Source of the DNA: an uncultured Desulfobacterales bacterium
Lineage (GTDB): Bacteria; Desulfobacterota; Desulfobacteria; Desulfobacterales; JAHEIW01
DNA: 64,000 nt
Direction of reading: 5' to 3'
Assembly (NCBI GenBank): GCA_947259495.1
Contig: CAMYLV010000031.1
Location: 1-64,000, forward strand
The notes beneath the pieces were generated by a model. The model did not search any database, was not told the DNA's origin, and saw only the letters and a program-made list of their open reading frames with translations. Below, piece by piece: positions 59,152 to 62,359 of the stretch. Numbering within the stretch: position 1 is the stretch's first letter; each line of letters begins with the position of its first letter. The position numbers and the translations under genes are program-made.

Positions 59152-59918
59152 ATGGCCGCAGAAAATTCGAGCGAACAAACTCCGTCCGACGCAATCGCAG
59201 CGGAGAAACCCGGAAATCCGTTTACCTGGCTTTTCCATCCGTTTGGTGCCCGCGCCATGCGGATCAACGGCAACCTGGGTGCCCTGGCGATCTTTTTTTT
59301 CCGCGCCTTTATCCAGATTTTTCATCCCAAGCAGTTTTCGGCCATCGTCCAGCAGATTTACTTTATCGGGGCCAGATCAGCCCAGATCGTTATGCTGGTG
59401 GGCTTTTTTACCGGCATGGTCCTGGGCCTGCAGCTGTACCATGTGCTGGTCAAATTTGGCTCGGTGGGGGTGCTGGGCACCGCCGTCGGGCTTTCGTTGA
59501 TCAGAGAGATGGGGCCGGTTCCCTGTCCACCATGCGCATAGACCCGGTGGGGTTTTTAATCAGCCCGCGGATAGCGGCTGCGATCATCAGCTTTCCGATC
59601 TTGACCACCCTGTTTGATCTGATCGGGATTCTGGGCGGCTGGGTCAGCGGTTGTCTGTTGCTGGGGGTTAATTCCGGGGCCTATTTTTACCGCGTGGTGT
59701 CTGCCACCCAGATGGAAGATATCACCGGGGGTCTGGTCAAGTCTTTAGTCTTTGGCATTCTGGTGGTGACTATCTGCTGTTTTCAGGGTTTTTTCACCCA
59801 TATGCGCACCGACAGTTACGGCGCCCGCAGTGTCAGCCTGTCGACCACCTCGGCGGTAGTGATCTCGTGCGTGATGATTTTGATCTCAGATTATGTCGTA
59901 ACATCTTTCATTTTGTAG
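59152..59918 (+). pseudogene. mlaE: MlaE permease with an internal deletion and frameshift
   Basis: Two overlapping frames together form MlaE. The first (59152-59541) ends ...LIREMGPV then runs into PCPPCA and a stop. The second (59532-59918) starts with MRIDPVGFLISPR. In intact MlaE, about 30 residues between these points include the conserved GRAGSA-TAEIG loop; they are missing here and the frame shifts. The remaining helices are normal. Downstream mla genes are intact. A true break or a sequencing/assembly error are both possible. Confidence 0.8.
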
Positions 59919-59927
59919 GGGCAGATT

Positions 59928-61181
59928 ATGGAAAAACAACCGATCATCGAATTTAAAGGTGTGACCAAACGATTTGATGTGCGCACCATTCTGGATAAGG
60001 TCGACTTTCAAATTTATGAGGGCGAGGTGACCACTTTGATCGGATTGAGCGGCACGGGCAAGAGCGTGACCCTCAAGCACATAATCGGGCTGCTCAAACC
60101 CGATGAGGGCCAGATTCTGTATCGCGGACAGCCCATCGATCAAATGAGCAAAAAAGAATGGAACGCATACATCGGTCAGATCAGCTATATGTTTCAAAAC
60201 AACGCGCTTTTTGATTCGTTGACTGTCTTTGAAAATGTGGCCTTGCCGCTGCGTCAGACCACCCATCTGGGTAAAAAGGAAATTGCCGAAAAAGCCATGG
60301 CCAGCATCGAGCAGACCGAGCTGACCGAGGTATTTGATAAATACCCATCCGAATTGTCGGGCGGTATGCAAAAGCGGGCCGCGCTGGCCCGGGCGCTGGT
60401 CACCGATCCGTCGCTGGTGCTCTTTGATGAGCCCACCACCGGTCAGGACCCCATCCGTAAAAATGCCATTTTGGGCATGGTGGCCGAGTATCAAAGGCGG
60501 TTTGGCTTTACCGCCCTTTTGATCAGCCACGAAATTCCGGATGTGTATTTTATCTCCAATCGCATTCTGGCCCTCTATGGCCGCAAAATCGTTTTCCAGG
60601 GCACCCCGGATGAATTTGAAGAGTTTGAGCACCCGTTCCGCGAAGAGATCCTGACCAGCCTTGAAAACTTGCAGGCCGACATCAGTGGCTTATATTCCAA
60701 GCGTCACTTTAAGGTTCGTTATCAAACCGATTTGAGCAAGCGGCATCCGGATGCCATGTACGCGGTGGCCGCCTTTGCCGTCGATGATCTGGACACCATT
60801 ATCGAGCATATGGGGCATGATGCCGCCCAGGAGATCATCCGGGCTCTGGGTTCATTCATCAATAAACATTTTGGTGCTGTCGGGGGATTTTCCTCACGGC
60901 AGACGATTAATGAATATGCCACCGTTCTGCCTTATTCGAACCTTGAGGAGGCCGAGCGGATCATGACGGATTTCAAAAAAGATTTTCGGGAACATGGTTT
61001 GCCCGACATCAAGACGTTGCAGGAAGGCGAAAAACCGGGTGAGGATTCGTTTGAGTTCAACATCCTGGCCGGTCTGGCCCAGGGCAAACCTCAGATTGAA
61101 ATTGAATCGGTAATGGAATTTGCCCGTTTTAATCAAACACCCATCGCACGCTTTCAGTGTGAACGCGGAGGTAAGGCGTAA
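59928..61181 (+). CDS. mlaF: MlaF ATPase fused to a degenerate GGDEF-like domain
   Basis: 417 residues. Residues 1-245 are a standard MlaF: Walker A GLSGTGKS (39-46), signature LSGGMQKR, Walker B LVLFDEPTTGQDP, LLISHEI switch histidine. The unusual part is the C-terminal ~165 residues. VDDLDTIIEHMGHDAAQEII (about 285-304) lines up with the ID-FK-IND-FGH--GD segment of GGDEF domains, and TINEYATVLP (about 326-335) replaces GGDEF-xxxLP. The catalytic GG is lost, so no cyclase activity is expected. Length is 150 residues more than a normal MlaF. It overlaps mlaD by one base. Confidence 0.87.
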   Translation: MEKQPIIEFKGVTKRFDVRTILDKVDFQIYEGEVTTLIGLSGTGKSVTLKHIIGLLKPDEGQILYRGQPIDQMSKKEWNAYIGQISYMFQNNALFDSLTVFENVALPLRQTTHLGKKEIAEKAMASIEQTELTEVFDKYPSELSGGMQKRAALARALVTDPSLVLFDEPTTGQDPIRKNAILGMVAEYQRRFGFTALLISHEIPDVYFISNRILALYGRKIVFQGTPDEFEEFEHPFREEILTSLENLQADISGLYSKRHFKVRYQTDLSKRHPDAMYAVAAFAVDDLDTIIEHMGHDAAQEIIRALGSFINKHFGAVGGFSSRQTINEYATVLPYSNLEEAERIMTDFKKDFREHGLPDIKTLQEGEKPGEDSFEFNILAGLAQGKPQIEIESVMEFARFNQTPIARFQCERGGKA

Positions 61182-61747: not shown

Positions 61748-62359
61748 ATGAAAAGAAATTATATCAGACCGGGTGTCATCCTGCTGGCAATTTTGTTGCT
61801 CCTGCCGTTTCAGGTTTATGCTGCCGGTGCTAAAGCGACCGTCGAAACTCAGATCAACAAGATCCTGACCACCATGAAACAGCCGGGTTTCAAGGACCAA
61901 TCTCAGGATGCCCAGATTGACGAAATTCGCAAAATCATTAACGAAGTTTTTGATTATCAGGAACTTTCCAAACGCACCCTGGGCCGGGACTGGAGAAAAT
62001 TTACACCGGAACAACAGACCGAGTTTATCGATCTTTTCAGCCAGGTGCTGGAAAATGTTTACGCGGACCGCATTTTAGCCTACACCCATGAGCAAATCGA
62101 CTTTGGCAAAGAAACCGAACTGAAAAAGGGCCGGGTGGAGGTTGAAAGCTACATCATCACGCTGGACAATAAAAAGGTACCGCTGTTTTACCGGATGACC
62201 CAAAAGGGTGATCAATGGCGGGTTTACGATGTGGTGATCGAAGGGGTGAGTATGATAAAAAACTACCGCGGCGAATTTAGAGATATGCTTTCTAAAAAGA
62301 AGCCTGAAGATCTGCTGCAAACGCTGCGGGAGAAAACCAAGCAAAAACCGGCCAGCTAG
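61748..62359 (+). CDS. mlaC: MlaC periplasmic phospholipid carrier
   Basis: 203 residues with signal peptide (GVILLAILLLLPFQVYA). FDYQELSKRTLGRDWRKFTPEQQTEFIDLF and WRVYDVVIEGVSMIKNYRGEF are the family marks. It carries phospholipid between MlaD and MlaA. AGGGAGAAA precedes the ATG. Confidence 0.94.
   Translation: MKRNYIRPGVILLAILLLLPFQVYAAGAKATVETQINKILTTMKQPGFKDQSQDAQIDEIRKIINEVFDYQELSKRTLGRDWRKFTPEQQTEFIDLFSQVLENVYADRILAYTHEQIDFGKETELKKGRVEVESYIITLDNKKVPLFYRMTQKGDQWRVYDVVIEGVSMIKNYRGEFRDMLSKKKPEDLLQTLREKTKQKPAS

Follow-up and report, generated by a model that had tools for sequence, protein, structure and literature searches.

The window, a stretch of 64,000 nucleotides from a contig of an uncultured Desulfobacterales bacterium, contains at 59928–61181 (+) an open reading frame that encodes, as read from the window sequence, a 417-residue MlaF-type ABC ATPase. 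Pfam matches on its neighbours give the operon order mlaE-F-D-C-A, with mlaE in two frames (Table 1). The ATPase part resembles the solved chains 7d06_B (E 3.1e-51) and 6xbd_I (MlaF, E 1.7e-44), and the best NCBIfam model for the 417-residue protein is MlaF PRK11831 (E 5.7e-53); the equivalog cut-off of the NCBIfam E. coli-type MlaF is missed (179.9 bits versus 441). One study (PMC7367683) describes the methionine of its signature motif as a residue that Mla- and TGD-like systems conserve well. Compared with a same-genus relative (L281), the window mlaE has ∼ 85 bases absent at 59490–59560 and the frame changed. The cause may be misassembly or a genuine disruption of the gene, and in the second case the operon may have lost its activity. 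Runs of ∼ 100 N (gaps or masked) are seen in three other loci (L022, L024 and L025), where they fall within mlaE or at the beginning of mlaF.

Table 1. Genes of the mla operon in the window and features of the MlaF-type protein.
Feature	Position	Strand	Basis
mlaE part 1 (permease), without STAS, interrupted	59152..59541	+	PF02405 profile 1-59, E 3e-14
mlaE part 2, different frame	59532..59918	+	PF02405 profile 92-211, E 9.3e-35
MlaF ABC ATPase domain, residues 1-234	59928..60629	+	PF00005 E 1e-35; nearest solved chains MlaF-type
Walker A, GLSGTGKS	60042..60065	+	sequence reading
ABC signature LSGGM, methionine form	60354..60368	+	sequence reading
Walker B, VLFDE	60417..60431	+	sequence reading
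C-terminal GGDEF-derived domain, residues 235-417	60630..61178	+	PF00990 above cut-off, fold searches, tree
SGLYSKRHF, counterpart of GGDEF entry motif LTGLYNRR	60684..60710	+	alignments
Ala284, aligned with the metal-binding Asp	60777..60779	+	column 84 of alignment
Gln301, aligned with the substrate Asp	60828..60830	+	column 101 of alignment
AVGG in place of the I-site RxxD	60876..60887	+	columns 117 and 120
TINEY in place of GG(D/E)EF	60903..60917	+	alignments
mlaD, short form, 154 aa	61181..61645	+	PF02470 E 1.5e-20
mlaC	61748..62359	+	PF05494 E 3.3e-49
mlaA	62426..63262	+	PF04333 E 1.1e-56

The C-terminal ∼ 180 residues of the protein are a true GGDEF-family domain. On their own (60663–61178) they match PF00990 (GGDEF) with E 5.1e-7 and 30.0 bits, the curated cut-off being 23.8; as a control, the reversed C-terminal residues gave no Pfam match at E ≤ 1. 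All 18 members of alignment A1 match PF00990 at E ≤ 0.01 (best 1.5e-18). The NCBIfam GGDEF model is matched weakly (17.7 bits, cut-off 37.4), and the NCBIfam DgcR model scores 25.5 bits (cut-off 500). The single domain sequence is collinear with the solved cyclase DgcR (6zxb, E 1.7e-4), as is a profile of 18 relatives with 6zxm (E 2.9e-17). This profile finds 34 PDB sequences at E ≤ 1e-6, of which those named are mostly GGDEF proteins, and its matches include ammonium transporter entries (8qj3/8qpf), in their C-terminal part. An AlphaFold2 model of the domain, built from five close sequences (pLDDT 70.8, pTM 0.65), has helices and strands in GGDEF order, with pLDDT < 50 at the entry motif (model 22–34, residues 248–260) and at the I-site/hairpin (model 92–100, residues 318–326). 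Foldseek with this model returned 67 PDB matches at E ≤ 0.001. Among the matches listed (50), most bear titles that identify them as GGDEF domains or cyclases, and the few others, such as PA3702 and SadC, are proteins of this kind too. VIA-align gave its top Z to 6hbz (Z 12.8, 156 aligned, rmsd 5.7), and 4wxw superposed with rmsd 2.8 over 140 residues (Z 11.9). The full-length A3 model is of low confidence (mean pLDDT 46.5, pTM 0.38), and for this reason we infer the position of the domain relative to the ATPase.

An earlier note, made from the sequence, had proposed an MlaF ATPase with a C-terminal GGDEF-like domain. The PF00990 score, the fold searches and the domain tree described below agree with it, and structure prediction with fold search recovered the GGDEF fold rather than an unrelated one or a known unrelated MlaF C-terminal domain. 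The domain lies where the note had put it but starts slightly upstream, at the HPF junction (60630). Its motifs VDDLD, MGHD and TINEYATVLP (for GGDEFxxxLP) are present, whereas the proposed six-residue spacer between the first two is in fact five residues long (TIIEH). The counterpart of the entry motif, SGLYSKRHF, is not mentioned in the note.

Residue counts were made for 83 distinct fused domains and, for comparison, for 24 ordinary GGDEFs from the phylum. Of the fused domains, 50 belong to group A, which includes the window protein, and 33 to its sister, group B. The two groups are separated by motif pattern, and two sequences assigned to B in this way, L111 and L113, nevertheless sit with A on the trees. 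The column of Ala284 we take to be that of PleD D327 (metal Asp), and the column of Gln301 presumably that of PleD D344 (substrate Asp). The metal Asp occurs in one of 50 group A domains, in no group B domain (0/33) and in all 24 ordinary GGDEFs; the substrate Asp occurs in 0/50 (Gln in 41), 0/33 (Gln in 28) and 23/24 respectively. Within the GGDEF hairpin the second Gly is absent from both groups (0/50 and 0/33), Asp/Glu at the third position is found in 6/50 of A (Asn in 33) and 5/33 of B (Asn in 23), and Glu at the fourth in 36/50 and 1/33. All three positions are kept in 24/24 ordinary GGDEFs, which were picked by a pattern demanding R-x-GG(D/E)EF-like letters (20 of them chosen as high scorers), so that their conservation at these columns is by selection. 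Both groups have a shorter region than ordinary GGDEFs around the position of the phosphate-binding Lys/Arg. A single change, such as AGDEF, may leave activity, as the accessible part of PMC3974145 warns; in the fused domains, unlike this case, several catalytic positions are lost together. Judged by these residues, the cyclase centre is dead, as the note had recognized: those of a diguanylate cyclase are all but absent from the family and are lost in the window protein, where Ala, Gln and TINEY replace the metal Asp, the substrate Asp and GG(D/E)EF. In group A another hairpin, itself strongly conserved, has on the alignments taken the place of the former nucleotide sites, and an HFGxVGGFSxR stretch is near-invariant throughout the 50 members. 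Another MlaF-GGDEF protein, L079 (G642:C9), still has RFGADEF at the active-site hairpin.

The fusion is an old, widespread architecture of the phylum and no single oddity. A survey of homologues, which the earlier note had suggested, found 127 profile-A1 matches of at least 88 bits, the limit used for MlaF-type matches, in 100/291 genomes of the order sample, and 53 in 50/395 genomes of the phylum sample, 42 of these genomes being outside the order; the matches were counted by hand from listings, 15 genomes are common to both samples, and the limit omits at least one true member (L110 in G571, 64.3 bits) and three likely members in the order sample (G100, G111 and G052, 79–84 bits) and includes some fragments in which the ABC part is unseen (e.g. 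G066, G160:C45 and G631). Those relatives that carry a name are MAGs assigned to Desulfobacterales, which the NCBI scheme places in Thermodesulfobacteriota. ABC and C-terminal domain share one frame in 56 of 58 fetched loci (55 by motif, L073 by HMM), and in L042 and L082 the ABC domain is only partly in the frame of the C-terminal domain. In a separate search, a single-domain query retrieved 14 of 58 relatives at E ≤ 1e-6, some being ordinary GGDEF proteins. A scan of genome contigs with short exact peptide patterns gave 10 loci, with the full fusion in four (L022–L025), a match over the first 119 residues only in L026, and other ABC proteins in five.

On a tree of 45 hand-picked fused domains (from the 83) and the 24 ordinary GGDEFs, all 45 fall on one side of the ordinary ones with support 100/98, and the group A branch has support 98/97. 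In a quick ATPase tree of 119 rows, which took in 18 selected STAS-partner loci, a single clade (SH-aLRT 100) unites the Mla-type MlaFs, whether or not they carry the domain, separate from the ATPases beside STAS-MlaE (100). The simplest reading of these trees would be one old fusion to MlaF, followed by the A/B split and some losses. The genome of the window also has an orphan MlaF-GGDEF gene (L002; L107:4611-5912, G000:C21), 50% identical in the domain and with no adjoining mlaE, close copies of which are present in G001, G003 and G004. On one contig (L108, G421:C15) a group A and a group B MlaF-GGDEF gene lie ∼ 4 kb apart.

We see about an even chance that the dead GGDEF domain holds or tunes the MlaF ATPase dimer on MlaE, through pairing with its twin or the adjacent ATPase, and this is the likeliest of the mechanisms considered. 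The domain would sit just past the ABC core, at the place taken in E. coli MlaF by the handshake tail; in relatives, short MlaFs stop anywhere from a few to ∼ 30 residues past the N-P-x-x-x-x-F-I segment, out of which the domain continues. The accessible part of the E. coli study (PMC7367683) reports that the ∼ 25-residue MlaF tail wraps round the partner and MlaB, that its removal abolishes function, and that fusing on a GCN4 dimerization domain brings most of the function back. It also describes the C-terminal domains of other ABC ATPases as regulatory and as self-associating beneath the ATPases. From these tail data, and because the domain begins where the E. coli tail begins, we infer a dimerizing or regulatory role. 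No MlaB gene was found here, so the most likely partners, below the transporter, would be the twin domain or the ATPase beside it. So paired, it would hold the ATPase dimer on MlaE, and it may adjust ATPase activity as is thought for MetN-type or TOBE C-terminal domains. The constraint on the domain and the pattern of partners, both described below, also favour such a role. Against it, 11 Mla-type loci have a short MlaF without the domain or a detected STAS gene, the orphan copy (L002) has no adjoining mlaE, the window mlaE is broken, the partner pattern tracks deep ATPase clades, and dN/dS is in most pairs higher in the domain than in the ABC part.

It is doubtful that the domain is instead a second-messenger receptor, with c-di-GMP or another nucleotide gating lipid transport through the I-site in group B and through some new site in group A. 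In group B, whose cyclase centre is likewise lost, RxxD is retained in 20/33 members (I-site Arg 20/33, I-site Asp 31/33) and the guanine-site Asn is retained in 18/33, the ordinary GGDEFs having 24/24, 22/24 and 24/24 at the three positions. The 13 GGDEF and 32 PilZ matches in the genome show that it possesses c-di-GMP signalling, and degenerate GGDEF receptors with RxxD, PopA and PelD, are known from the accessible parts of PMC12564702 and PMC3974145. However, neither the I-site Arg nor the I-site Asp is found in any of the 50 group A domains, and the guanine-site Asn is found in only one; the window protein belongs to this group. RxxD is present anyway in roughly 44–57% of GGDEF proteins according to PMC3974145 (accessible part), so its retention in group B may be plain inheritance, and the placing of L111 and L113 with A on the trees also weighs against a receptor. 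Because active site and RxxD are both lost in the window protein, its binding or sensing of c-di-GMP appears unlikely; in group B, to go by the retained residues, sensing is possible, and the binding of GTP or c-di-GMP that the note had suggested would fit that group better. We likewise consider it unlikely that in the phylum a cyclic dinucleotide, or another nucleotide, bound to the MlaF GGDEF domain directly gates phospholipid traffic between the membranes; this putative ligand would bind at the I-site in B and at the rebuilt hairpin in A. If this were true, the Mla pump would be a direct output of second-messenger signalling.

Could the domain directly replace MlaB, docking on the MlaB-binding face of MlaF and stabilizing it? 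We surveyed the partners of 123 MlaE frames from 59 genomes, leaving out the broken mlaE of the window. STAS-fused MlaE accounts for 48 frames, 42 with an MlaF at hand (one of them, L165, cut by a contig end), and none of the 42 MlaFs has the domain. MlaE without STAS accounts for 47 frames, 44 with an MlaF; here the domain is present in 25 and absent in 19, the latter comprising eight with a long MlaD and 11 of Mla type. The exclusion between domain and STAS-fused MlaE has a Fisher p of 5e-10, a value that does not come from independent events, since the STAS/GGDEF split tracks deep ATPase clades. A third, low-scoring MlaE class makes up 28 frames, 27 of them (L106 and 26 more loci) without a detected adjoining MlaF; the neighbouring ATPase-like gene of L106 looks degenerate. 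Among 20 wider loci with the domain, 13 read E-F-D-C-A, one E-F-D-C and five E-F-D only (some at contig ends), and one has the D and C labels in a single frame. At L282 (G018:C48) a single frame of 242 residues carries both the MlaD and the MlaC label and may be a fusion. The 11 loci with a short Mla-type MlaF read E-F-D-C-A (nine) or E-F-D-C (two).

No MlaB/STAS gene was detected within ∼ 7 kb at 40 operon loci (less where contigs end) by a home-made STAS HMM, which could miss a divergent MlaB. The STAS_2 matches of this genome lie away from the operon, the nearest ∼ 8 kb on in another MCE locus; two of its other MCE loci have STAS-MlaE and a short MlaF, and in a third the MlaE has no STAS and the ATPase looks degenerate. 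The lack of a detected MlaB near domain-bearing operons and the absence of the GGDEF domain from every MlaF next to STAS-fused MlaE speak for replacement of MlaB, as does the need of E. coli MlaF for MlaB (PMC7367683, accessible part). Yet the 11 Mla-type loci with a short MlaF likewise have no detected STAS gene, so Mla apparently can dispense with both, which weakens a simple exchange of MlaB for GGDEF. Given also that a divergent MlaB could escape the HMM, we judge direct replacement improbable.

That the domain is a functionless relic being lost is more improbable still. On the quick ATPase tree the domain-bearing MlaFs are interspersed with the 11 short Mla-type ones, which takes 11 changes on the best tree, only two of them forced by well-supported branches, and the MlaF of L259 (G046) ends inside an apparent cut GGDEF domain, its 40-residue tail being unrecognized by Pfam; both are as expected of a relic. 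Against this, the domain is under purifying selection: dN/dS is low in all 11 pairs (0.039–0.182, against 0.028–0.140 for the ABC part; higher in the C-terminal domain in nine of the 11 pairs, with dS > 1 in several). The near-invariance of the HFGxVGGFSxR stretch in group A and the occurrence of the domain in 42 genomes beyond the order also argue against decay. Finally, a convergent resemblance to GGDEF, for which one might cite the loss of every catalytic motif in the window protein and the middling confidence of the domain model, poorest at the entry motif and hairpin, is hardly credible when the Pfam, fold-search, profile and tree results all place the domain with GGDEF and the family member L079 retains RFGADEF and a PF00990 match of 1.2e-7.

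ABC ATPases that bear an accessory domain at the C terminus are a known kind, and what would be new here is the GGDEF origin of the domain. The MlaF proteins of the E. coli and A. baumannii MlaFEDB complexes share with the window protein the ABC core, LSGGM and the operon partners mlaE and mlaD, but their solved chains have 269–276 residues as compared with 417, the GGDEF-derived domain being added in the latter. The E. coli protein ends in the handshake tail and binds MlaB (PMC7367683, accessible part), whereas no mlaB was found in the window operon. PopA and PelD resemble the window domain in combining a GGDEF fold with a dead cyclase centre, and group B relatives also share their RxxD. The window protein differs from them in having lost RxxD and in the partner, which is an ABC ATPase rather than a response regulator or a Pel protein. 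As in the window protein, a regulatory domain follows the ABC core in MetN (ferredoxin-like) and in MalK/ModC (TOBE). OpuCA carries a C-terminal CBS domain, with c-di-AMP as its nucleotide. None of these domains is GGDEF-derived, unlike that of the window protein.

Transporter and GGDEF-type stretch are also joined in one chain in an ammonium transporter (PDB 8qj3, 8qj4 and 8qpf; residues 467–581, E 3.9e-9). This is a channel-type protein and not an ABC ATPase, and its cyclase is presumably intact; our search of the PMC literature found no paper on this fusion. The STAS-MlaE fusions in other MCE loci of the same genome belong to the same transporter superfamily and likewise have an extra domain on the cytoplasmic side, but there the domain is STAS, on the permease, and the ATPases are short, whereas in the window it is GGDEF-derived and on the ATPase. 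The earlier note knew of no described case of a GGDEF domain on MlaF, and we found none in the PMC literature, subscription papers and preprints lying outside its scope.

E. coli MlaF relies on its tail and on the small partner MlaB; a phylum-wide MlaF lineage carries in their stead a conserved domain from the c-di-GMP machinery. This lineage provides a system for asking whether a nucleotide signal controls lipid transport, and it shows a route to asking how a dead cyclase domain may serve as a dimerizing or regulatory part of a pump.
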